Assembly (NCBI RefSeq): GCF_036785885.1
Contig: NC_092329.1
Span: 3,348,001 to 3,412,000 of the forward strand
DNA length: 64,000 nt
Source of the DNA: Coffea arabica
Lineage: Eukaryota; Streptophyta; Magnoliopsida; Gentianales; Rubiaceae
Direction: 5' to 3'
The notes beneath the pieces were generated by a model. It saw nothing but the letters and a program-made list of their open reading frames with translations, did no database searches and had not been told where the DNA came from. Shown here in pieces: positions 4,076 to 61,350 of the stretch. The position numbers and the translations under genes are program-made. Every line of letters begins with the position of its first letter. The stretch's first letter is position 1.

Positions 4076-4862
4076 GGGATAATCTCATGAACCATCCTTG
4101 AGGTTTTTGATAATTTTATTGAGCTTTCTTGAAATTTCAAAAATTACACCGATCTATTTTGATTTGTCACTTTTGATAACTATGAATCTCAGACTTGGTC
4201 AACAATTTGAATGAATACCTCCAAAATACCCTCAGCTCATAAAGTTCAATTACTTTTCATAGCAATTATAATATGTTTCGCACAAATATAAGAAAAGAGT
4301 ATCAAGTTTTCAATTTCATATTTTTTTTTGTTTGATAAGCAATTATGACAATAATTCTATGGTTATGACACAATGCTTTTAATGGTGCTTTACCATAGAT
4401 ACATATTCTTTCTAAGTTGGAGAAGAAAATATCTTCATAAGACTTTTAAACTGCGTGAATTTTTGGATTGATGGAATTACCAAAATTTGATAGTATTTTT
4501 TATCATTTCTTTTTGAATTAGTGTTGCTTTTGATACCAAAAAAAATTGACAAATAACAACTTGATCACTTTCAAAGTTGTTTAAAAAAAATGGTCACTAA
4601 TCCAACATTTAGGGTAGTTGGTGTTCATGGTTTTCTATAGTTTTACTAGTAAAAATATAAAAATGAGGAATAAAAAGGCAAAAAGGAAAAGAAAAAATAA
4701 TTATAAACCATTCTTTGTATATGCATACCTTTGTATGGATTTTAATTAAAATGTTAAAATTAGCATTGCCACTCTAGGAGGATAAGGGCGGTAAATATAA
4801 TTTTTAAAACCTTAAGAGGGTTCAATGAAATTATCAGAAACCTCTCATTAAACTTCTGAGAC
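4076..4862. mobile_element. Putative MITE ending just upstream of the GT4 gene
   Basis: The block at 4100-4123 (GAGGTTTTTGATAATTTTATTGA) reappears inverted at about 4821-4845 with only two changes. The interior is very AT-rich and has no coding frame. Phrases such as 'fails to keep aggregate rank' do not apply here; simply, paired near-terminal inverted repeats with an AT-rich non-coding interior are what a non-autonomous DNA transposon looks like. The right end lies about 85 bases before the glycosyltransferase ATG, so it may form part of that promoter. I could not identify a target-site duplication, so the outer ends are approximate. Confidence 0.4.
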
Positions 4863-21961: not shown

Positions 21962-22401
21962 CACTGCAGGAAATTTAGCCTTCTCGTGACTTGTCAAATT
22001 AATTAGAATCGAAGTCACAAATAACTTACTTTTTGTGACATGAAACAGGTGAATGTAGCAATAAGTTGATTTTAAATCACAAGAGGTGCAGTTTTAATTA
22101 AGTCACAGGTAACATAAATGACATTCATTTACAAGTCACAATTGATATTATGACTTGTAAATGAGGGTCACGGTTTACATAGTTTAAGATCAATTGTGAC
22201 TATGTAAATCGTGGCCTTTATTAATTTACAAGTCACAAAATCAATTATATCCTGTAAATGAATACTATCACTTTTATTATTTGTGGCATAAAAATCATAT
22301 ATATTTTTTTGTAACCATCATCAATTTCATGTCATCATAAGATTTTGTGACTTGCAACTACTTGACAAGTGAAAAAAAGCCCAAATTTCTTAATTATAGT
22401 G
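21962..22401. mobile_element. CACTA-type MITE with GTA target duplication
   Basis: The element begins CACTGCAGGAAATTTAGCC and ends in the reverse complement of CACTATAATTAAGAAATTT. Both ends are followed internally by a matching CTTGTCAA block. GTA flanks each side (21959-21961 and 22402-22404), the 3-bp duplication of CACTA transposons. The interior has repeated GTGACTT/AAGTCAC motifs in both orientations, the subterminal repeats expected of this superfamily. It is 440 bp with no transposase, so it is non-autonomous. Confidence 0.75.
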
Positions 22402-37195: not shown

Positions 37196-37427
37196 CTCAT
37201 TTGGATTGGGGAATTGGACGAAGAATTTGATATTCGCACAAATCACTCTGATTATTTGGATTATTTAAGAAATGTTTGAATTTATAATTCACCAATTATC
37301 AAAATACATTTTAAATACTGGAATAATAGGTGATTTATAATTCAAATACCTACTAAATAATTGTAACAACTACTCACACTTGTGAGTATTTCAAATCTTT
37401 CATCAAATCCCTCAATCCAAATGCAGT
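37196..37427. mobile_element. MITE, first copy of a family also seen at 59104
   Basis: It starts with CATTTGGATTGGGGAATTGG and ends with TTTCAAATCTTTCATCAAATC followed by CCTCAATCCAAATGCAG. The ends are inverted relative to each other, and both match the ends of the element at 59104-59389. No target duplication could be fixed. Confidence 0.5.
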
Positions 37428-37710
37428 CTAAAAGAAATTTAAAACCGGATATTACTAAAGCAACTAAAGAGAGGGTTCCATTGAAGCCTTCATTATTTCA
37501 ATTTTGCATGGAACTACAAAATTTCTCTTTCATTTCTTCAATCAGATTGAGATTGAAGGCACATCGCAACTTAGTGGGATATTGATTAATTTTCTCTTGA
37601 AGTTTATTCCTAGATTTAAGGAATATTTGAAACTCTTATAAGAAGGGGCCAAAGAAGAATCCTTAAGAGTTCTTCTCACTTCCAGGTTCAAGATTTGAAT
37701 CATAAGCCTA

Positions 37711-45150: not shown

Positions 45151-47327
45151 ATCTGCTTAATCGCGTTTGAGAGAGTCCACGCTGATGCAACTGTAAAAGA
45201 ATGTTAGGAATCCATTGAAAAGGTAACAAATTGCAAAGCAATAGCTGGGCAGAGTGCCTAATAGGTTAATATCAAGGCTTTCGGGAGGAGTGCATCATTT
45301 GTCTTTCCTTAAAAAGGAAGAATCACTTTTATCAATTCAATGCTAATTTTTCTCGTTCCCTCCTATTATTTTTCCCTCCACCTATTTATGGATGAGCAGA
45401 AAAGCTTGTGCAACCTCCTTAAAAACACAAACTCCCAACTTTTTTGCTCTATTCCTCCGGTAAATAAATGTCATTGCATGCATTTACTGTCATATCTACT
45501 CGGTCTGTGATTGACATACATGTTGATGTGTCTGCCAAAACTTAACATTAGGGATGGCAGCGGTCACATACCCTCAAAAATTTCTCTTATCAAATATGAA
45601 TCTGCATATCTAAATCTTTTATCATATTTATCAAGTAACTTTACGAGTTTTTAACTCTTATTACCAAATCCTCTCACTTCCATCCCGCATCCTCTAACCG
45701 CTAATTTGAATAGTTTCGAAAAAGGGAATTAATTTTTATCATACTAAAATCAATACATATCATGTTAAGTCAAAACACTACACTGAAGTTTAAACTTGAA
45801 GAGAGCCATAGAAAAATTCAACATTTTATGAAGGGTAAATTAATAGTCTTCCAAAATAAGATTCAAATAACTATCTTACATTTTCCAGCAAGAAATTGTA
45901 CATAAAACGTGACAAAAAACAGTTTACAAGATAAACATGTGCTCCAACTGAATACAAATTAAAGAAAATAAGTGTGCTCTAAAGGTATCAATTCCTGGAC
46001 ACACACACACATGTGTCATGTGTGTGTGTGTCGAGTATTGGATAACGAGTTTTAGGATTCTCTTTTTAAATACTATCAGATTATCCATCGGCAACCCCTC
46101 ATTAATATCAAATCCTAACAAGTTATCCATCGACTGTCAATCAAATTAACCATTGGATAGAGTACTTGCGGGTATCAAATTTTACTCTACCCACTGCCAT
46201 CCCTATTTAACATTAATGGGGTCTATTTGGTTAGCATGATTCATTAAAATATTTTTTTCAAATATTATTCAATTTGTATCATAAATATAATTTTTAATTT
46301 TTTTAGTTCACATGTATCATATCATAAAAGTTCTATATGAAATGTTATTCCAAATAATTTTTTATAAATAATATCTATCCAATTGTAATTTTTGTAGCAA
46401 GTTCTTCATGAAAACTATGAAAGTTGGCTAATGATTTCCTTTCAAGATGAAAGATGCAATCTTCCTCTGCAAGCGTAGGTATTTTGGATTAAGCTGTCAT
46501 GCTTTTTAAGAAAAAAAAAAATTTATCGACAACGAACTAATGAAATAGTAACTCTCAGTATCGATTATCTCAGTTAAAATCACGAAAAGTAAATTCCAAT
46601 TTTAGTCTCACTTTAGGGTTGGAAGTGTTGATTCCAACTTCTATCATACCTAAACAGTCGATTGGCGATCTTGGTTTAGTCTAGCAAATTAACGTGGAAT
46701 ATAAAGATCATGGACATGACGTGAAGAAGGTGTCCTAGCTAAGTAAGGTACGGAATAAATGTATCAATTTGCTATTGAACGACATTGCCTTGTGTGTAGG
46801 GTACCCTTGTAAAGCCATATATATATTTTTTGAAAAGCAATATTGACTGGCCTATACATGAAGATCAGTTTCATTTATAAGGTTTAGTGGACGTGAAAAG
46901 CAGGATGAGCTGGAGGGTCCTATTGCTGGATTTAGTGCCCTAATCAGATTATTTGGTATTTTCCAACTTGAGTGCTTTGTCTTAATTCTTCTTCGCAAAC
47001 TTTAGACCTTCTTTTAAGGGCTATGCAAAAAATAAAAATGGCTTTTAGGATTCAAAGTTTACTGCAGATTCACATCGTGAGAAAAAAATAAAAAGCTTAG
47101 TGGGATGTTTTTCTTTCTGAACAGAACGGAAGTACGGGTTAAGGATCAAAGAATTCTATTTAACCTTAATTTATTCCTGGTTTAGGATTAAACAATCCTG
47201 TTGAACCTTAATTTATTCAGGATTAAAAAAAAAAAAAGCAAAGCAACTGAAAACGTTCCAAGTGTCAGTGGATCTTTCTCCATTGATCAGTGAATTTTTT
47301 TTAATACTCGTTAGTCATGATATTTGT
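45151..47327. repeat. Segmental duplication, copy A
   Basis: From ATCTGCTTAATCG to about 47327 this block matches 53632-55264 in the same orientation. Shared landmarks include GGAATCCATTGAAAA, GCAATAGCTGGGCAGAGTG, TAAATGTCATTGCATGCATTT, AAGGTACGGAATAAATGTATC and TTAGTGCCCTAATCAGATTA. Copy A carries an extra 657-bp hAT MITE. No clear gene lies inside the block. Confidence 0.85.
45549..46205. mobile_element. hAT-type MITE within duplication copy A
   Basis: TAGGGATGGCAGCGG at the left is mirrored by CCACTGCCATCCCTA at the right. The flanks are CTTAACAT (45541-45548) and TTTAACAT (46206-46213), an 8-bp duplication with one change. The matching place in copy B (about 54160) lacks the element. It includes a CA/TG palindrome near 46000-46032. 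Confidence 0.75.
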
Positions 47328-47825
47328 TTGGTCATAATGATTTTCTTTTCCAAGAACATAGATAATTAAAAAAAAAAAAAAGAAGGAACACTCAGATGTG
47401 AAATCATTCTCTAATCACTGTGAATATTATGAAGTAACAAGATTCTAGTTTACATACTTACGAGGAACCAAAACCAAAAAAAAGAGAGAGAGAGAGAGAG
47501 CAATTGTCTGATCATGAAGAGGCAGGCCAACGAATTTGTCTGGAAGCGCATAGGCAAATGATCAACATCTTTGCAGCAGTTGTATTGCGGATTCTTCTAC
47601 GTCTTCAAACTGGGTGAGGCTCCCAATTCTTCAACTTTCCCCCAAACATTCTTGAAGGTCATCGTCAGCTTTGATGACGATTTTGACGAAATTGTTGGGA
47701 TGTGGATGATAAGCGTTTATATGGGTGGTGTAGCGACCTCTGTAGTGCAGCCGTGCTGGCTTGTCTCCTCACCCAAGTCGCCAGCGGTTTCACGACCCTC
47801 CTATACAGGCAAAGGCTGAGGGCCA
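47328..47825. other. Spacer between duplication copy A and the split ORF
   Basis: Contains a (AG)n microsatellite near 47483-47500. Overlapping frames of 60-80 codons lie on both strands at 47571-47890. The base composition is coding-like around 47640-47880, so an exon of the split minus-strand gene could lie here, but I cannot tell which frame is real. Confidence 0.35.
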
Positions 47826-48077: not shown

Positions 48078-48748
48078 TGATGCGGCTGCCAAAAACAAGA
48101 TCCGAGCTGAGCTGCTGTGAGCTGAGCGAGCTGGTCAGGGACGAGCTGATGGGAGGAAAGCTAGCGAACTGAGCTCAGTCCTGGAACGCGATCCGAGCTG
48201 AGCTGCTGTGAGCTGAGCGAGCTGGTCAGGGACGAGCTGGCTAGGTGAACGAACCGACCTGCATATGGACAGACGGCGGGGCTAACAGAGAGTGGCCGAC
48301 CTGACGGGGAGAGAACGGACGACCTGTCCTGCAGAGAGAGAATTAAACGGAGAGGGGACTGAGGTCCCCGGAATAGCTCCGACGGCCAAGTCAGTTGAGC
48401 TTGAGAGTAGAGTAATAGTAGAGAATACTTATGTGTGCGTACCTTGAGTTGTCAAGTAGTGCTATATTTATAGGCTTAACGAGTAGTAGTTTCCATATAG
48501 GAGTCGGAGTCCCCTTAGGGTTCGGAGTCCTTCTAGGGTTTCGTATGACAACCCATAAAGGTCCGGAGGCGGCGGCCCATCAGGCCCACTTCATGAAGAG
48601 GCGGCGACTACGGCCGAACTGACCTCCCTCTACTCCGAGCTGCTCTGCCCAAGCTGCCATATCACAGCATCCGTAGATTAGTTGGCTGAGCTGACAGGTC
48701 ATCATGTCCGAACTGACACGTGACTACTGGGAAATTTGCCCCACTACA
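48078..48748 (-). repeat. 3' LTR of the gag-only element
   Basis: 671 bp. In element orientation it begins TGTAGTGGGGC and ends GCCGCATCA, so it has TG...CA ends. It contains an internal duplication of a CGAGCTGAGCTGCTGTGAGC block (about 48109 and 48191). Compared with the other LTR it differs at CATATGG versus CAGATGG and GGCTGAG versus GGCCGAG. Confidence 0.95.
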
Positions 48749-48761
48749 CTAGCCCCCCTTT
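48749..48761 (-). promoter_or_regulatory. Polypurine tract of the retrotransposon
   Basis: AAAGGGGGGCTAG on the minus strand directly abuts the 3' LTR, in the position where plus-strand DNA synthesis is primed. Confidence 0.75.
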
Positions 48762-49370
48762 GAGTCTAGAGTCATAAAAAAGTCGCATGAGTCTAGACCA
48801 AGTTTCTTGGCGAAGAGTCAGTTCGGTGTGAGACCTATGATTCCACGATTGCGGCCCTTGCTCGAGTAACTTGTAAGACCGAACTGAATAGGACCAGTTC
48901 GTTCTTTTGTATGAACTCCTCCTTTGTAAAGAGACTCTTGTGGACTGAATAGACTTTTGTTTCTTCTATGCTTAGCAAAATTTTTCATTCATGTCTTTCT
49001 TATCATGCTGTCTAAATACACTTGCGCGAACAGACCCCGGGCTAGCGCGCGAACTGACTTCCAAATAGTTCATATATTTGCACGAAAAGATAGGACCATG
49101 CGCGACCAAACAACTCAGGCTATGTATGGACAGAGTGAGTGAGTTTTAATGAAAGAGCCTCATACTCGGACTCGTTATTGGAGGTCTTGAAGTCGAACCT
49201 CAAGGCGCAAGCCAATTTCTCCCCCGTAGGGCTGATTAGGAGGAGTCCAACTCCACACCCTTGCTTGATACTCTATCAATATACAATGTCTGGGTTGGGA
49301 TGGCCTGTCCAGCATCCTCCTTGGTTTCTTCGGCCTGTACAACCTCGCCGACCTGTTTGGCTTCTACAGT

Positions 49371-49870
49371 TTATCCGACCTGCTCGGCCTCAGCTGCGTC
49401 TCTGGCCAGCTCGGCCTCGGCGGCTCTCGCGGCCTTTATGACCTCGGCAGTCTCTCCGGCCAGCTTGGCCTCATCTGCGTCTCCGGTCAGCTCGGCCTTG
49501 GCTGATCTCACGGCTCGTGTGATCTCGGCAGCTTCTCCGGCTTGTTTGGCCTCAACTGTGTCTCTGGTCAGCTCGGCCTTGGCTGCTCTAGCGGCCTTTA
49601 TGACCTCGGCAGCCTCTCCGGCCAGCTTGGCCTCATCTGCGTCTCCGGTCAGCTCGGCCTTGGCTGATCTCACGGCTCGTGTGACCTCGGCAGCTTCTCC
49701 GGCTTGTTTGGCCTCAGCTGTGTCTTTGGTCAGCTCGGCCTTGGCCGCTCTTGCGGCCTTCATGACCTCGGCAGCCTCTCCGGCCAGCTTGGCCTCATCT
49801 GCGTCTCCGGTCAGCTCGGCCTCGGCTGCTCTTATGGCCTGTACGATCTCTGCAGTTTCTCCTGTTCACC
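49371..49870 (-). repeat. Alanine-rich 27-residue repeats downstream of gag
   Basis: The plus strand repeats GGCCTTTATGACCTCGGCAG-type words about every 162 bp. On the minus strand this is an open frame of about 27-residue (81-bp) units of the form AKAELT-D-EAK-AGEAAEV, alternating between two unit types. The units look helical, like a coiled coil. The frame is shifted relative to gag, which stops at 49832, so a small indel may have separated a once longer gag tail. Confidence 0.75.
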
Positions 49871-50893
49871 CTTCAGGCGATTAGCTTCCACTGCATTAGC
49901 TTTCTCGTGAGCTCGATTCAGCATCTCCCGAACTGACTTGGGAGGTCTCTCCACAAACTCGCTGTATAGTTTCTGTTTACGCAGTCCGTTGATGAAGGCG
50001 GCCATGACGACCTTATCGTCCCGATCCCGGACCTGGAGGGACTCGTTGTTGAATCGGACCATGTACTCACGCAGCGATTCCTCAGGCCTTTGCTGAACTG
50101 TCATCAGGTGAGCAGTACTCTTGGAGAAGGCTCGTGACGAAATGAACTGAGCTGAGAACAGTCGTGCGAGCTGGCTGAAGGACCGAACTGACCTGGGGGG
50201 TAGTCCCTGGAACCACTGGCGCGCCTTTCCCTCCAGGAACATTGGAAAGGTCCTGCATCTGACCGCATCCGCGGCCGTTTGCAGGTGCATTTGCGTCATG
50301 AATGCGAACAAATGATCCTCCGGATCCGTAGTCGCGTCGTAGGATTTCATAGTCGGTATTTTGAATTTCGCAGGCAGCGGGTAGTTCTCAACGTCAGGGA
50401 CGAAGGGAAAGGCGATGTACTTATCCGCCTCAGGATCCCACAGCAGGTCCAGCTCATCCTGCCCCTGGTGCTGCCCCTCTCGTGGGGAGAGCTCTCCCCT
50501 TGAATACCTTCGGAAGGGGTTCGGGTGCTCAGTTCGGGAGTTCTTGTGGGAAGTCTCCATGACCTCGATCTGTTCATGCATGAGCTCCCTGCGCACCCGC
50601 TTCGGCCGGGGATTAGGACTTCCTGCTCGGGATTCTGACTGCCCAATTCCTTCCACTCCTTGGACCTTAGGCTCCTGGTCATGATGACCTCCCATCTGCC
50701 CTTTGAGGTAGTTCATGATTGTCTCGAAGGTAGGTAGGTTTTCCGCCACCGTCTGAACCAGCTGTTCAGGCGGGATTCGTGAAAGCCCCGTCCCCTCGTC
50801 TCCAGGAGTCGGACCCTGATGGGGGTTTTGGGGGCCACTTCGTTCAGTCCTCTTGGATCCGTCAGTGTTTCTCTGAGACCTAGTTTTTGACAT
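49832..50893 (-). CDS. gag: Retrotransposon gag protein
   Basis: From ATG at 50893 the frame encodes 353 residues. A charged N-terminus is followed by the retrotransposon gag capsid domain, about residues 175-300. It shows FKIPTMKSYDATTDPEDHL, MFLEGKARQWFQGLP and RPEESLREYMVRFNNE, all typical of plant Ty3/gypsy gag proteins. No zinc knuckle (CX2CX4HX4C) is seen before the stop. The frame is intact, so the protein may still be made and could package the element's RNA with help in trans. The preferred start is the ATG; an upstream in-frame TTG is less likely. Confidence 0.88.
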   Translation of the reverse strand: MSKTRSQRNTDGSKRTERSGPQNPHQGPTPGDEGTGLSRIPPEQLVQTVAENLPTFETIMNYLKGQMGGHHDQEPKVQGVEGIGQSESRAGSPNPRPKRVRRELMHEQIEVMETSHKNSRTEHPNPFRRYSRGELSPREGQHQGQDELDLLWDPEADKYIAFPFVPDVENYPLPAKFKIPTMKSYDATTDPEDHLFAFMTQMHLQTAADAVRCRTFPMFLEGKARQWFQGLPPRSVRSFSQLARLFSAQFISSRAFSKSTAHLMTVQQRPEESLREYMVRFNNESLQVRDRDDKVVMAAFINGLRKQKLYSEFVERPPKSVREMLNRAHEKANAVEANRLKGEQEKLQRSYRP

Positions 50894-50930
50894 GATTTGC
50901 AAGAGAAGAAATATACGTGTTTCCCACAGA

Positions 50931-50938
50931 CGGCGCCA
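50931..50938 (-). promoter_or_regulatory. tRNA primer-binding site
   Basis: TGGCGCCG on the minus strand begins two bases after the 5' LTR ends. It is complementary to a tRNA 3' end of the type CGGCGCCA. The tRNA species is not certain. Confidence 0.75.
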
Positions 50939-50940
50939 AT

Positions 50941-51611
50941 TGATGCGGCTGCCAAAAACAAGATCCGAGCTGAGCTGCTGTGAGCTGAGCGAGCTGGTCA
51001 GGGACGAGCTGATGGGAGGAAAGCTAGCGAACTGAGCTCAGTCCTGGAACGCGATCCGAGCTGAGCTGCTGTGAGCTGAGCGAGCTGGTCAGGGACGAGC
51101 TGGCTAGGTGAACGAACCGACCTGCAGATGGACAGACGGCGGGGCTAACAGAGAGTGGCCGACCTGACGGGGAGAGAACGGACGACCTGTCCTGCAGAGA
51201 GAGAATTAAACGGAGAGGGGACTGAGGTCCCCGGAATAGCTCCGACGGCCAAGTCAGTTGAGCTTGAGAGTAGAGTAATAGTAGAGAATACTTATGTGTG
51301 CGTACCTTGAGTTGTCAAGTAGTGCTATATTTATAGGCTTAACGAGTAGTAGTTTCCATATAGGAGTCGGAGTCCCCTTAGGGTTCGGAGTCCTTCTAGG
51401 GTTTCGTATGACAACCCATAAAGGTCCGGAGGCGGCGGCCCATCAGGCCCACTTCATGAAGAGGCGGCGACTACGGCCGAACTGACCTCCCTCTACTCCG
51501 AGCTGCTCTGCCCAAGCTGCCATATCACAGCATCCGTAGATTAGTTGGCCGAGCTGACAGGTCATCATGTCCGAACTGACACGTGACTACTGGGAAATTT
51601 GCCCCACTACA
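50941..51611 (-). repeat. 5' LTR of the gag-only element
   Basis: 671 bp, the same length as the 3' LTR and different at two positions by direct reading. On the minus strand, a TATA-like CCTATAAATATAGC near 51323-51336 is the probable promoter for the genomic RNA. Confidence 0.95.
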
Positions 51612-53631: not shown

Positions 53632-55264
53632 ATCTGCTTAATCGGGTTTGAGAAAATCCACGTTGATCAATTGTAGAAGAAAGCCAGGAATCCATTGAAA
53701 AGTTGACAAATTGCAAAGAGCAATAGCTGGGCAGAGTGCCTAATATCAGGGCTTTTGGTAGGAGTAGGGGATTAGGCTTGTCCATATTCCCGGGGCACAT
53801 CTTTTGTCCTTTCTTCAAAAGGAAGAATCACTTCTATCAATTCAATGCTAATACTTTCACCAAAAAAAAAAAAAATCAATGCTAATTTTCCTTTTTCTTT
53901 CCTATTATTTTCCTTTCTTTCCATTTATGGATGAGCGGTTACGCCTGGGCAAGCCCCGATGTTGGACACTGACGGTAGACCAGATATCATAATGATTCCC
54001 AATTCCATGAACCCCCCTCCTCTCTTTCCCTCCTCTTCCCAAAAAAAAAAAAAAAGAAGTTTGTTGTAATAGTCCAGTAAATAAATGTCATTGCATGCAT
54101 TTGCTATCATACCTACTCTGTCTGTGATTAATATACACACACATTGATATGTCTGCCTAAACATTAATGGGTTTGTTTGGGTAGCATGATTCATAAAAAA
54201 ATTTTAAATATTATTTAATTTGTATCATAAATATAAATTTTAATCTTTTTTTATTTCACATACATCATATCATAAACGTGCTATATGAAGTGTTATTCCA
54301 AATAATTGTTTACAAATAATATCAATCCAATTGTTATTTTTGTAGCAAGTTCTTCTTGAAAATTTTGAAAGTTGGCTAATGATTTCCTTTTGAGATGAAA
54401 GATGCAATAATCTTTCTCTGCAGGCTCAGGTATTTTGGATCGATCTGTTATGTATTTTAAGAAAACAAAATTTATCGACAACAAACTGTTCAAACAGTAA
54501 CTCTCAATATCAATTATCTCAGTTGAAGTCGTGAAAAGTAAATTCCAATTTTAGTCTCACTTTAGACTTGGAAGTGTTGATTCCAATTTCCATCGTACCT
54601 ACACAGTCAATTGACAATCTTGGTTTAGTCTAGCAAATTAACGTGGAATATAAAGAGCATGGACATGACGTTTGATCTGAAGAAGGTGTCCTAGCTAAGT
54701 AAGGTACGGAATAAATGTATCAATTTGCTATTGAACGACATTGCCTTTTGTGTAGGGTACCCTTGTAAAGCAACATTGACTGGCTGTACATGAAGATCAG
54801 TTTCATTTATAAGGATTAGTGGACGTGAAAAGCAGGATGAGCCGCAGGGTCCTATTGCTGGATTTAGTGCCCTAATCAGATTATTTGATATTCTCCAGCT
54901 TGAGTGCTTTGTCTTCTTCTTCTTCTTCTTCTTCGCAAACTTTAGACCTTCTTTTAAGGGCTTCGCAAAAAATACAAATGACTTTTAGGATTCAAAGCTT
55001 ACTGCAGATTCAGTTCGTGAGTGAAAAATGCTTGGTGGGATATATGCTTTCCTTTCCGAACAAAATGGAAGTACGGATTAAAGAATTCTGTTTAACCTTA
55101 ATTTATTCCTGGTTTGGGATTAAACAATCCTGTTGAACCTTAATTTATTCAGGATTAAAGAAGCAAAGCAACTGAAAACAATCTGAATTTCAGTGGATCT
55201 TTCTTTCTCCATTGATCAGTGAATTTTTTTTTTTTTTCAATACTCGCTAGTCGTGATATTTGTT
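53632..55264. repeat. Segmental duplication, copy B
   Basis: Direct copy of 45151-47327 with many substitutions and small indels, and without the hAT MITE of copy A. A (CTT)n stretch near 54913-54932 is expanded compared with copy A. The start-to-start distance is about 8.5 kb, of which 3.5 kb is the younger retrotransposon. Confidence 0.85.
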
Positions 55265-58200
55265 TCATCTGCCCTTTTTCTTTCCCCTTTTCTGAGACCC
55301 CGTCCTATCTTCCCTTCTTTGTTTTTCCTCTATGAAAAGATTGCGAAAGGAAAATGAAAATCAACTAGCTGCAGTTTTAGTTCATGTACATAACTTTGCC
55401 TAGAAGTTGGGTAGATAGTTTGTGTTCATTGTTTTAGTAACTGGCGGTCTCAAATGTCCAATTAGCAGTATATTTATTTTGGTAGTTTTATTTTGGCTGC
55501 AAAAGACGGATATTTTCAACAAGCTGGTAAACAAAAGCAAGATGATGAATTCAAACACCGGGCGGGCATGCGGTTTGACACCAAAAAGAAAGGAAAAAAG
55601 AGGAACCTATTTAGGTGCAGTACAAAAGACTTAAACAAGATATGATAGATATTACAGTGCTGTTGCCAATTGGCCTGGAGCTTTGACCCTAAAGTTGACC
55701 CTCAAGCTTAAAAGGTAAGAAGATTGTTTAGATTAATTTGACGTGGATGGACCCATAAAGTCATAATGGTCTATCCTCCAGAACTTATCAGAAGCTATTA
55801 GCGCCCAGATCGATGTGCCTTTTCTTTTCTAATTAATGCAATCGATGCAATATTATGTCCATAATCAATGTTAACATGTAGACTCACTGCGATCTAGAAA
55901 CCTTAATCCTAATAATTAAAGTAAAGTCCTTCGAAATAAAGTGATGGATGGATAACCCTCCTAAATAATAAAAGAAAAGGAAAAAAAATTTGGTCGGTAA
56001 GCCTTTTAATTTATCCAAAATAATATAGCAGGATTGACGCCTTTCTCAGGGAAAGGTGAATAGCATTTGGGAATAAACATCATCACGACCAACCCCTAGC
56101 AGCGTCATAGTGATTTTTTTTTGTTTTTTTTGTTTTTACTAGTATATAGATAAACCTTCGACGTTTTATTTGTATAAAGCTATCCCAATCTCTTCATCAA
56201 ATGATTCAAACCCTTAATCACCCGTCATTTAGGGAAACTTTTTTTTTATTGCAGAGAAAAAAAATCTAATTATTGTTGTTTATAGTAATTTCTATTGGAA
56301 TGATTGGATATATAGTTTATTTTTCTACAATAAATTGTTGAAATTTTCCATCCTTCTCGCTCAAAACTATATCCGTGCAGTTCATCTAACAGGTTATTCA
56401 AAATAGAAATAGTAAAAGTTGAGTCAAATAGATTGCTACAAATGAAACGTGTGGTAAAATATGAGTGTGACTTCAGAGTGGGGGAAAGCACGAGCAGGAT
56501 TGGGTGAAGAGTACGGGATAATGTTCCACGCTATTCGTTTTCTAAATGTTTTTAAGAAAACCAACATTTCGGATCCATCATTAGCTTTTCTTCTTTTTGT
56601 TTTGGTTCTCTTTTTTTTTTTTTTGTTAAAATCAGTGAGTCATCGCACATTCACGCCCAATCGGTTGTTCCTTGCTCATTTTCAGTAGCTTTTGTTTTTT
56701 AAATTAGGTTATCCTGCTCAGATCGTTTGGTCTAATTTGTCATGTCAACTCAGCTTTCCGGCCAAACCGGAAATGCTCAAAGCATCTTACAAAATCCTAG
56801 ACAATTTATAGAGCTGTTGACATGTTGCAATGTGTAGATACTTTTGACTGGAAAATATTCTCTGTCATTATTGTAGTACGAAATTGCATGATTAGAAAGC
56901 ACAAGAATCTTAGTGAACCTAAGCTATAAAGCCACTGATTCTTTGTCACCTTCATGTGGGGAAGGAATTAACCCAAAGGGGTTGCCGGGGAATGGCTGCT
57001 GGCAGGTATAGGGTGGGGAGAATGCACGGGAGTGCCTGCAGCCTCCCCATCCCTCCCCCAAGATTTTCTCTTTTCCCTTTTTTACCGTATGAGACTTAAT
57101 TTCTTAACAAAATCAAGATTTTACTTTTGTCTCGACGTACAACAAATAAGAAGTTCCACGAAGTTTCACAATGAAGTATAGATCAGGTGATCAATGCTTC
57201 ACTGGTAATTAGTAGTAAGTCACGAGTTTCAATCATCAAAAGTTAGATAAAGAATCAGTGTTGACCGTTTATCAGAAAAAAAGAATAATATGCATCCATC
57301 AATATATAGTTTGCGAACTTCATTTCATGGATCGGCCACTTGAAGGATTGGATGAAGAGGAGGAAAATGTTAGTTTAATGGTGACTAAAGAGGCAGTTCA
57401 GGACTCAGTTGGGAAATCAAAATCTCTATGATAAAGCATTCCAGTCCCTAGCCAATTTTCACAACCTTCCAGACCAAAAGGTTTGCAAATTAAGGTTAAT
57501 CTGCTGTTTATTAGGTTAATGTTGATTAGTACCAATTATAACAGCAAAGAAGAAATTAATTATGCTAGTAAGTAGACATGTTCTGAAGCAAAAAGGACAT
57601 TCAAAGCCCACCTTTATCTTGCATTGAACGAATCTTTTATGAATTGTTGAAGATGAGAAGATTATTTAAGAAAATGCTGTCGCAAACCTGACGCAGAAAC
57701 AGCTTTTTGTGAAATCAATCTTGGAAGCTAGTGAGACTAACAGGTATGGAAAGGTAACAAGAAAGGGGGATTTCAATAAAGAAAAATAGCTTTGAATCCA
57801 AGAGAAAAATAAAAATGGTAGAAAGGTGTGCTTGTGCGGGTGTCTCCCTGTCTGTTTAGCCATACTAAATAATAAAATACAAGGCGCAGGATGTTTGAGC
57901 ATGCTGTAAAGACTAAAGCAAAGAAAAGGGAAATAAAGCAACGGCAAAGTTGCCCATACTCTGATCTCACATTCTCCCATCTACCACTTTTCATAGGATT
58001 TGAACATTTGTGGGCCTCGTGGGATTATTATAGGTTTTCTTTCTGGGAATCACATCCTAATCATAGTTTAATGTGTTTCTTTATTCTTTCTATCTTCAAC
58101 CTATCATATACTATGTGTTTCCACACACGCATCCTTAGCAACAAACAAAATCATGAGATATAATACCCCCGGCTTTCTCGTTCTCTCTCTCTCTCTTTTT

Positions 58201-59103
58201 CACCTTCTTTGCTTCGAGAAGTTGAGGTTTTTAACCATCACCACTTCAACATAAATGTTAAGAATGTTTAACATGCAGCATGTTAAGAACATAGGCGTCC
58301 TCTTTCCCTTCTTCACCAACCAAGAGGTTGGTGTTAATGTCAAATTATATCCACTTTTACTTGGATTCTATGTTAATTTGTCCAAACAAACTCGTGAATG
58401 GTGTTGGTAATAGTTTGTAATGAGAATGTTGAAGTTCATTGTCCCACATTAAAAGAGGATAAAGTGCTTATTGTCTGTATATGCATCATTGTCTTGTTTC
58501 CTTTACAAACTTGTTCCAAAATATTAGTTTGGAGGGAAAGTTTGGTGGGAAAGTTATTTCAGTTTATATCTCATACACTTGAATATGAATTGAAAGATAT
58601 ATAAAATCTTGACACTTGGGGCACCTTGGGGCTTTCTGATTCGGATAAGTAGTTGGTTAACTACCTATGCACCTATTCAAAAAGGATTGCATTCATCACT
58701 TTGAAAGTCACCTTAAGAAAGTACTTTCACACCTCAAAGTCTCTGTATTTGTCTAGTTTAGATTTGTTATTTACTGCAAATTTCCAACAATTGGTGTGCA
58801 CTTTGATAAATGCATGGGATAATTCTTCTGCAATTGATGAAGGACGAAGTGCCACATATGCGTCATGCCTAAACATTACGAAATCATTTACTTGTATACA
58901 CTTGTTTGTATATTACAACCATTGTGGTATTAAGGGCAAAGCCCTACATATGCATTATCTACCGTTATCCTCCCCTGTTGCCATTATAGAGGATATGACA
59001 AAGAAATAATAATCAAGAAGGTTTTACCATACTTCGCTCTCAACATGATAAATTTTTTTTTAATATATCATAGGATTGTTATGGAGATTTTCATTTTCTT
59101 TTT
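55265..59103. other. Gene-poor intergenic DNA
   Basis: Several frames of 70-118 codons (for example 57666-57980 and 58653-59009) overlap frames on the other strand and show no known motif. Poly-T runs lie near 56612-56624. I support no gene here. Confidence 0.4.
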
Positions 59104-59389
59104 GGTTGTGTTTGGATTGAGAGATTTGACTAAAAATTTGAAATGTTCTCAAATCTCTTTAAGCTATTTAAATTATTTGGAAGGTATTTAGATGTGTAAT
59201 TCATCACTTATTTTAAGCGTTTAGATGTATTTAAATAATTTATAGATTAAATCCCCAAATATCTCAAGTAATTCAAACAATCTAGAAGGGATTACAAATC
59301 CAAATGCATCTCAAATAATCTAAACAATCTAATGTGATTTGATTGCATTTCAAATCTTTCGTCAAATCTTTCAATTTAAACACACAGCC
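59104..59389. mobile_element. MITE, second copy of the family at 37196
   Basis: The left end GGTTGTGTTTGGATTGAGAG is mirrored by the right end TTTCAATTTAAACACACAGCC. About 45 bp inside each end match in inverted orientation (AGATTTGAC / GTCAAATCT). A target duplication of TTCTTTTT is possible but offset by three bases from the ends as drawn, so the borders are approximate. Confidence 0.6.
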
Positions 59390-59409
59390 AAATTCTTTTT
59401 GCAACGTAT

Positions 59410-59763
59410 TTGGTGATGCCAAATGACCGTGTGACAAATTACTCCAAGCTTTTCATTTTGCATGGTAATCTTGTGGAAATAGTCTTTGTATGGAAAAGGA
59501 TTGTTTTGGCCTTGTCACCGATAAAAGAAGCATCTGAAGGGAACCAATATTGGAATTTGGTAGCGGGAATCCGAGGGTTGTTAGGCTATGAATGGGAATG
59601 CAGTTTGGAACATTCCTGGCGTGAAGGAAACTACCGTGCAGATCATTTAGCAAAGCTAGGTAAGAGTTTAGCTTCAGGGATAACTGTTTTCAAGAACCCT
59701 CCACACAGACGCTGGAAACGCTTCTCGGCCCGGATGTTTGTAGAGTGGCAATACCTCGTCTAG
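59410..59763 (+). pseudogene. Remnant of a LINE-type RNase H domain
   Basis: A 117-codon frame ends with LGYEWECSLEHSWREG and NYRADHLAKLGKS. The H-x-x-R-E-x-N-x-x-A-D-x-L-A-K-x-G pattern is the C-terminal part of the plant RNase H-like domain found at the end of LINE polyproteins and in derived proteins. The upstream RNase H core and any reverse transcriptase are absent, so this is a 5'-truncated remnant, as is common for LINEs. It lies 75 bp left of the Pack-MULE. Confidence 0.55.
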
Positions 59764-59836
59764 TTATTATGTAACGGGACCATGGTCCTCCACTGTACCA
59801 AAAAAAATCAAAATCAAAACTTGATCATTTTTTGAA

Positions 59837-60067
59837 GGGCAAATTATCCAATTGGCTCTTGAACTCTTTTTCTAGGTAAAAATAAGCCCCTCATCTATTT
59901 TTTGCTGACTTTAAGCCCTCGAACTTGTAAAATTGGACACCCGTGACCCTTTTAGCCAGTTTCTCCGGTTTTGCAACCGGAAGGTCAATTCACACGAATG
60001 CCAGTGTGCTTCTTCAAAGGACATTTTTGTTCGCATCTTCTAAGCAAAAAGGGAACAACTCCTCCAC
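59837..60067 (+). repeat. Left terminal inverted repeat of the Pack-MULE
   Basis: About 231 bp, matching the reverse complement of 61111-61341. It contains an ATG-led frame from the repeat (starting about 59943) that is not in frame with the captured deaminase. Confidence 0.9.
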
Positions 60068-60079
60068 CTCCTCCCCACC

Positions 60080-60780
60080 TTGGTTCAACCAGCCCAGTCC
60101 CTTGCTCGTCCTCCCATCTCCAAATTCTCCGTCAGGGCCGTCGGCCTCGGCTCCAATAGCCGCGTTTTTATAGGCGTCGATCTCGAGTTCCCTGGTCTCC
60201 CCTTACATCAATCCGTCCACGCAGAGCAGTTCCTCTGCAACAACCTCGCCGTCAATGGCTGCCCTCGCCTCATTGCTCTCGTCGTCTCCGCTGCCCCTTG
60301 TGGCCACTGCCGCCAGTTCTTCCAAGAACTCCGGGATTCTTCCTCTCTCCAAATCCTCATCACCTCCGACCACCCAAATCAAAACTTTTCAAAATCTCCC
60401 CTCTCCTTTAAGCCATTGCCGGAATTCTTAACCAACCCATTTGGCCCCTGTGATCTATTGGATAAAGAATCTCCCCTCCTCCTCGAACCCCATAGCACTG
60501 GGCTATCTTTTGATACTTCCCGAAAACAGGCAAATTTGTGCAATGGCTATTCAAAAGAATCCGAACTTGATGGGAATTTTAAAAATTTAAGCAATGGGTT
60601 TTAGGGAGAGTTGGAAGAAAGTGAGGCCCTTCTGAGGATAGAAGCCTTGGAGGCTGCCAACAAGTCACATGCACCGTATAGCAGGTGCCTATTCGGGGTG
60701 GCCCTGATGGATCCCGAAGGGAAAGTGTACAGGGGATCATATATCGAGTCTGCAGCATATAATCTGAGTTTGGGGCTGGT
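60080..60780 (+). pseudogene. CDA: Captured cytidine deaminase, truncated with one in-frame stop
   Basis: The translated frame begins LVQPAQSLARPPISKF, corresponding to about residue 30 of plant CDA, so the natural start is missing. It continues through the zinc site: HAE (60218-60226, the catalytic Glu) and PCGHC (60296-60310). FGPCDLLDKESPLLLE follows, then the second-domain landmarks [13 protein letters not shown] and [14 protein letters not shown] at 60602-60604 interrupts the frame, which then resumes in phase. The similarity fades near 60780, so about the last 80 residues of a normal 300-residue enzyme are lost. Plant CDA hydrolyses cytidine to uridine in pyrimidine salvage. The copy has the catalytic motif but no in-frame ATG, so activity is doubtful. 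Confidence 0.85.
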
Positions 60781-60784
60781 TCAT

Positions 60785-61110
60785 TGCAATTGCTGTGTGA
60801 TCTCTTCACTTGAACTCGCTCCTACTCCCTGCGCTTATGGATATGGTGGTCTCGCCGGAGACAACTATGGTGGTCTCGCCGAGAATAGCGGCTGCAATGG
60901 CATCTCCACTGGAAGGTTTGGATGAGAATAGTGTTTTAGCGTCTAATTTTGATAGGACTGGTGTCCAGAGTGGGGGAGAATTGGGCAGTCGAAGGAATAG
61001 CTATGATTCTGCTAGTGGGGAGATTCCTGAGAGTGGTGGTATCACTCTCCTGCAGAGAATGAGAAGAGAGAAAGCGGCGGCAACGAGGGTTTTGCAGAAA
61101 TGGAGGGAAG
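60785..61110 (+). pseudogene. Second captured segment in the Pack-MULE, origin uncertain
   Basis: From about 60810 a different frame stays open to 61226, running into the right repeat. It includes SYDSASGEIPESGGITLLQR followed by RVLQKWREEG. The last part resembles the region before the first repeats of some mitochondrial PPR proteins (…LQKWVEEG…). That is a weak resemblance from memory. A short GGTCTCGCC duplication lies near 60847 and 60874. Confidence 0.4.
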
Positions 61111-61341
61111 AAGGAGGAGTTGTTCCATTTTTGTTTAGAAGATGCGGACAAAAATACCCTTTGAAGAAGCACGCTGGCATTCGTGTGAATTGGCCTTCCG
61201 GTTGCAAAATCGGAGAAACTGGCTAAAAGGGTCACGGGTGTCCAATTTTACAAGTTTGAGGGCTTAAAGTCAGCAAAAAATAGATGAGGAACTTATTTTT
61301 ACCTAGACAAAGAGTTCAAGGGCCAATTGGATAATTTGCCC
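61111..61341 (-). repeat. Right terminal inverted repeat of the Pack-MULE
   Basis: Reverse complement of the left repeat with about 13 differences, implying a moderately old element or some loss of matching by drift. Confidence 0.9.
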
Positions 61342-61350
61342 TTTTTTGAA

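Follow-up and report, generated by a model that had tools for sequence, protein, structure and literature searches.

How did a stretch of cytidine deaminase (CDA) coding sequence come to lie between two long inverted repeats, and what, if anything, does it do there? The question arises at C20:3348001-3412000 of the 1.198-Gb assembly G000, the 64,000-nucleotide stretch of DNA that was analysed as a whole and that we call the window. A sequence-only reading had described a complete Pack-MULE with a captured host CDA at this place, and that description is now supported by the terminal inverted repeats (TIRs), the target-site duplication (TSD), a parent gene, empty sites and a transposase-coding relative. 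The window element is almost certainly a Pack-MULE, that is, a non-autonomous Mutator-like transposon with captured pieces of a CDA gene and of a protein kinase gene, presumably moved by the transposase of related Mutator-like elements (MULEs). At the places examined, the contigs C3/C4, C5/C6, C7/C8, C11/C12 and C19/C20 align in the manner of haplotypes, and by these pairs the assembly looks like a phased diploid.

Both ends of the element lie exactly where they had been predicted, and the long TIRs and the exact 9-bp duplication were likewise borne out (Table 1). The two TIR arms are identical at 216 of 229 positions (94.3%), with 13 differences and no gap, and TTTTTTGAA stands on both sides. 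In the other copies that were read, the ends are of this type and differ by point changes. Among 17 copies with such ends, a set that includes the window element and counts the C3 and C4 alleles separately, the TSD is exact over 9-10 bp in 15; the exceptions, in C3 and C11, have one mismatch each, the C11 case being a weak A-rich match. The TSDs were read with the right end shifted by 1 base in C8 and by 4 bases in C4. A genome-wide search with the 30-base TIR end, allowing up to three mismatches, returned 189 forward and 188 reverse matches, and the reversed control returned 0. Together with the TSDs of the 17-copy set, this argues that the structure is not due to chance. TIR-arm divergence was rejected as a measure of age: no copy measured has identical arms, and some of the divergence may have been inherited. 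No age is claimed.

Table 1. Features of the window element, in window positions. C numbers denote contigs; L014 is the parent CDA allele on C12. Percentages are nucleotide identities.
Feature	Positions	Strand	Description
Left TSD	59828-59836	.	TTTTTTGAA; identical to right copy; single copy at the empty C19 allele
Mutator-like element, non-autonomous, intact	59837-61341		1505 bp
Left TIR	59837-60065	+	229 bp; first bases GGGCAAATTATCC
CDA coding fragment	60060-60783	+	Approximately parent codons 24-266 of 332; 96.1% to L014:3001-3724 over 724 bp, gap-free
In-frame TAG in CDA fragment	60602-60604	+	Common to C20, C15, C6 and C8
Internal-deletion junction	60781-60783	+	412 bp missing relative to long-form C4; TCA common to both sides
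CDA 3' part, downstream of parent stop codon	60781-60843	+	98.4% to L014:4140-4202; element bases 945-1007
129-codon ATG frame	60837-61226	+	Kinase-gene frame; extends into right TIR
Kinase-gene piece 1	60852-60989	+	96.4% to gene in C4:3001000-3010900, reverse-complement 4107-4244, inside 700-aa frame
Kinase-gene piece 2	60989-61042	+	90.7% over 54 bp, reverse-complement 4766-4819; 522 bp further along 700-aa frame
Kinase-gene piece 3, inverted	61051-61085	-	94.3% over 35 bp, reverse-complement 3339-3305; 5' part of frame
Right TIR	61113-61341	-	229 bp
Right TSD	61342-61350	.	TTTTTTGAA; exact 9 bp

The absence of a transposase, also claimed beforehand, follows from the cargo itself. CDA and kinase gene sequence accounts for all but 43 (8 + 8 + 27) of the 1047 bp between the TIRs, which leaves no room for a transposase. 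A Pfam scan of three of the six internal frames found deaminase only. The parent CDA coding stretch that matches the cargo has a GC content of 53%, compared with 37% for the window. A scan for bacterial promoters and terminators was discarded as meaningless for plant DNA.

Candidates for the source of transposase were found among longer elements with related ends. Three widely spaced TIR pairs were fetched from among the TIR-end matches listed (approximately the first hundred), and these delimit elements of 6-9 kb whose TIRs are 85-88% like those of the window element. The element at C3:3892123-3898285 (TIRs approximately 85-86% alike) has coding frames in two pieces, which match the MuDR DNA-binding domain DBD_Tnp_Mut (PF03108, 1.7e-6), the SWIM domain (PF04434, 2.5e-4) and the MULE transposase (PF10551, 4.3e-6), the last at 27.5 bits and just below the Pfam cut-off of 27.6. 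Frames of the longer element on C1 resemble those of this one, and the one frame scanned in the 9.3-kb C3 element gave no Pfam match. The TIRs are thus not unrelated repeats, a possibility held open by the sequence-only reading, and belong to a genome-wide family with a transposase-coding relative.

The CDA fragment occupies element bases 224-947, overlapping the end of the left TIR by a few bases, and at the protein level matches parent residues 24-267. It was recognized by PF00383 (3.9e-10) and PF08211 (3e-21), and by phmmer against Arabidopsis CDA1 (PDB 6l08) over residues 25-189 (E 2.1e-49) and 189-245 (E 1.6e-14). The CDA frame reads H at 60218, E at 60224, C at 60299 and C at 60308, which we take to be the zinc ligands and the catalytic residue. 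The second domain is matched 3' of the in-frame TAG over profile positions 42-94 of 130, and a weak stretch before the TAG covers profile positions 2-40 (15.8 bits, below the Pfam cut-off of 25). Of the earlier statement that both CDA subdomains and the whole zinc site had been captured, the part on the H, E, C and C residues holds, but the second domain is cut and is matched only in part. Nor is the captured piece a nearly whole CDA body, as had been stated: it has no start, is interrupted by the TAG and has lost the C-terminus, the last fifth of the protein, through the 412-bp deletion. The first ATG of its frame lies at 60707 (parent codon 241), 3' of the TAG, and stops lie upstream in the TIR. 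A functional plant CDA of the dimeric type would need a single open frame that begins with a start codon and spans the two deaminase domains, and the window copy has no such frame. At the site of the TAG, C4 and C3 have TAC, and the two parent alleles encode Asn and Tyr; a C-to-T change of CAG was accordingly rejected as the origin of the stop.

Capture of a host enzyme was correctly recognized by the sequence-only reading, but the kinase pieces beside it were overlooked. Their parent lies on C4 near 3.006 Mb, with an allele on C3, and contains a 700-aa open frame matched in two stretches by the Pfam Pkinase model (1.5e-35); presumably the gene is similar to At1g80870, a plant receptor-like kinase. 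The 522 bp skipped between the first two pieces fall inside this single open frame and so are not an intron; an exon-exon junction, as in a captured cDNA, was rejected in favor of an internal skip. The 129-codon frame is the longest ATG frame of the window element, followed by one of 72 codons.

This right end recurs with other partners. In the elements on C18, C1 and C11:13.88 Mb, the kinase piece begins at base 1019 and no CDA is present. In those at C11:4.69 Mb, C16 and C10, CDA extends to base 698, a third sequence follows, and the kinase piece starts at base 1053 or 1054. For the elements at C14:44.06 Mb, C4:20.1 Mb, C9, C14:2.8 Mb and C13, the shared part is limited to the final 290-390 bases at the right end. 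These differences among the elements fetched indicate that the right end has been joined to several kinds of left cargo. Among the elements L021-L028 (on C18, C1, C11, C14, C4, C9 and C13), which have the same TIRs and other cargoes, several contain an open frame that appears leucine-rich-repeat-like by eye.

The donor of the CDA piece is a single-exon gene with an intact frame of 332 aa beginning MDHLKF, present as alleles on C12 (L014) and C11 (L015). Its product matches the dimeric cytidine deaminase model TIGR01355 with 333 bits (cut-off 275), and no TIR match was found around it in the 8 kb fetched at either allele. A genome-wide CDA protein search gave 20 matches, two of them the parent alleles and 18 lying inside copies of the window-element family; the search scored the 23 best candidates as intron-free frames, which a diverged or intron-rich second CDA gene could escape. 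The CDA stretch in the element is hence not the sole copy in the genome; had it been so, this would have spoken against capture. The CDA-carrying insertion sites number nine: C20, C15, C6, C8, C4/C3, C22, C11:4.69 Mb, C16 and C10.

Four of these, C20 (the window), C15, C6 and C8, carry what we term the short form. The search for other copies with the same TIRs, suggested by the sequence-only reading, was productive, and three of those found are near-identical to the window element (C15 97.7%, C6 97.4%, C8 97.5%), each having unrelated flanks and its own exact TSD. The allelic stretch on C19 is 93-95% identical to both flanks of the window element, lacks the element, and has one TTTTTTGAA. The C6 and C8 insertions likewise have empty alleles, on C5 and C7 respectively, each with one copy of the target. 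The counterpart for C15 is a stretch on the same contig, 97-98% alike, which is a related site rather than a proven allele. An empty counterpart thus exists for four of the four short-form copies, counting the related site of C15, in keeping with transposition as a unit.

The long form, found at one site in both haplotypes (C4/C3), contains the full CDA stretch of approximately 1.2 kb, from codon 24 into the 3' flank, and in C4 has a 308-aa open frame that starts near codon 24 and ends at the natural stop. Element copies that still have this end start their CDA part at codon 24, save C16, whose CDA part starts at codon 27 with a 9-base alignment gap. This common start is consistent with one CDA capture. 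In a tree built without C22 and C10, and in which the C11 and C16 sequences have deviant letter composition, the short-form clade is supported at 100/97, and the branching that separates parent, long form and the remaining copies has weak support (64/73). On this tree a second capture would be formally conceivable, though the common junction argues against it. All four short copies share the TAG and have no ATG before it in the CDA frame, which suggests that the short form spread when already unable to make CDA. A further long-form CDA copy at C22:12184619-12192292 (L018/L019) is apparently interrupted in its CDA part by approximately 5.8 kb. The C3 allele of the long form (L013, C3:7000519-7002431) is far more decayed than that on C4, with arms 83.0% identical versus 92.9%. 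The right flanks of these two alleles are 98.2% alike, and in the 1 kb compared their left flanks match over only the 33 bp adjoining the element.

A degenerate host CDA paralogue that happens to lie between unrelated repeats, with no capture, would account for the CDA homology and for nothing further. We regard this as scarcely credible, given the empty allele with a single target copy, the near-identical elements at places with different flanks, the same codon at the TIR/CDA junction of separate copies, and the intact parent CDA devoid of TIRs. For the Pack-MULE, the following history may be proposed. A MULE would first have picked up the kinase-gene pieces that adjoin the right TIR; as three pieces of one gene are involved, one of them inverted, template switching during gap repair would be the easiest account. 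One kinase-carrying element would then have acquired the contiguous 1.2 kb or so of the CDA gene, from codon 24 into its 3' flank, next to the left TIR. The order of kinase before CDA is suggested by the sharing of parts among elements, a pattern that recombination of two elements would equally produce. A 412-bp internal deletion at a 3-base repeat, together with a nonsense mutation, would have given the short form, which, by then unable to encode CDA, would have inserted at four or more places, the window site among them, presumably mobilized in trans by transposase from related autonomous MULEs. After insertion, decay would have been mainly C-to-T, as for a methylated and silenced element.

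The pattern of changes bears on this last step. Of 14 changes private to the window copy, C>T and G>A account for 12 and the reverse changes for 0; for the four short copies together the figures are 49 of 69 and 4 of 69, after columns with a gap or with disagreement among the other three copies were dropped. At sites where the parent alleles agree, C>T/G>A changes make up 42 of 57 differences from the parent in C3 and 21 of 33 in C4. Such a spectrum is expected for methylated cytosines, and it suggests that the element is methylated. Parent-versus-element dN/dS values of 0.34-0.67 might be read as a sign of selection; this was rejected, as neutral simulation under the observed mutation spectrum yields similar nonsynonymous counts. 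With parent-branch changes included and C6 not entered, nonsynonymous changes observed versus simulated were 18 versus 18.5 in C20, 17 versus 19.3 in C15 and 24 versus 23.8 in C8, and for the long form 18 versus 21.4 in C4 (P 0.13) and 28 versus 32.9 in C3 (P 0.08). The changes after capture fit neutral, C-to-T-dominated decay; the slightly low counts in the long form would be compatible with weak constraint on C4/C3.

On these grounds the window element is most likely a silenced, neutrally decaying passenger. Expression of the captured CDA as a working or regulatory protein, in effect a new chimeric gene, could be argued from the retained H, E, C and C residues, the 308-aa open frame of the long form and the 129-codon ATG frame in the kinase part. 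That outcome is highly improbable, and for the window copy it is already largely refuted by the late first ATG, the upstream stops, the TAG and the missing last fifth, to which is added the neutral level of nonsynonymous change. Of the 129-codon frame, 43 codons are left in C15; a shift leaves it 108 codons long in C8, and C6 keeps it (130 codons).

An action in trans through RNA would be unlikely. Transcripts of the element or of a TIR hairpin would in this case give rise to small RNAs of 21-24 nt, and these would match the host CDA gene and reduce its expression. Cargo transcription from TIR promoters is often reported for Pack-MULEs and is not obligatory. One CDA gene (two alleles) was found as against nine CDA-carrying insertion sites, 318 of 1485 21-mers and 273 of 1482 24-mers of the window element are identical to a parent allele, the 229-bp arms could pair given read-through transcription, and the C>T-rich decay hints at methylation of the element. 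Sequence identity alone is, however, expected of any young Pack-MULE; the CDA piece lies in sense to the left TIR, and antisense RNA would require transcription from the right TIR; and the parent alleles retain an intact frame. The bolder form of this idea, in which the family would be a hemizygous, copy-number-variable silencer of the only CDA gene found, with small RNAs from the nine sites lowering the enzyme, is very doubtful. Were it true, pyrimidine salvage, and perhaps also cytidine pools, would vary between individuals with different insertion numbers. Having one CDA gene found against nine fragment sites, at least three of the insertions being heterozygous, makes trans-regulation of Pack-MULE parents testable within siblings.

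Pack-MULEs of rice, tomato, maize and Arabidopsis, such as tomato PM-ZIBP, are well described (PMC3310237). As outlined there, they share with the window element a non-autonomous MULE structure, long TIRs, a TSD of 9-11 bp, a fragment from a distant parent and a multi-copy family, and the size of the window element falls within their common range (PMC3310237). The cargo here is CDA plus protein kinase, and the copies examined have single TIRs, whereas most PM-ZIBP copies are described with tandem TIRs (PMC3310237). In the account of genic MULEs in Oryza, two or more parental genes contribute to 5-10% of MULE-derived putative genes, the cargo is GC-rich, and internal methylation increases with age (PMC4858842). 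The window element is similar in its two parents, GC-rich cargo and C>T decay; it differs from the genic MULEs described there in having no frame under detectable selection (PMC4858842). A maize Helitron carries the cytidine deaminase gene copy ZmCDA3, and it too is a transposon with a plant deaminase gene copy that occupies one haplotype, the other being empty (PMC1657028). As reported, the Helitron has no target-site duplication and its gene is putatively intact, unlike the window element, and ZmCDA3 was likened to nucleoside deaminases (PMC1657028). The CDA parent of the window element matches the dimeric CDA model instead.

No earlier CDA Pack-MULE was found in the open literature, the scope of a search outside which most subscription journals lie. 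Pack-MULEs with one or more parents are already known, and the CDA and kinase cargo adds a well-documented member. One genome here records both parents, an ancestor-like long form, the deletion, the dispersal of the short form, empty sites and a transposase-coding relative. Spread after the loss of coding capacity would indicate that amplification in this family is independent of a working captured protein.

Other repeats occupy the same window. At 48078-51611 is a young LTR retrotransposon with 671-bp direct repeats that are 99.7% identical and AGATC on both sides. The minus strand contains a gag frame (Retrotrans_gag, 1.2e-19), and as the 2.2-kb interior offers little space for more, the retrotransposon is probably gag-only and non-autonomous. 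A repeat pair at 46209-47329 and 54160-55265 (84.7%) encloses it. To the left of the Pack-MULE, a remnant frame at 59380-59763 gave a weak RVT_3 match (E 0.0028, below the Pfam cut-off) and is possibly the end of a LINE. A repeat of approximately 390 bp at 58404-58792, with many genomic copies, is a further difference between the haplotypes, the C19 allele lacking it. Short repeats were noted at 22123-22263 and 37198-37444, both self-complementary and MITE-like, and at 59088-59282, which is approximately 70% like 37250-37444 in opposite orientation.
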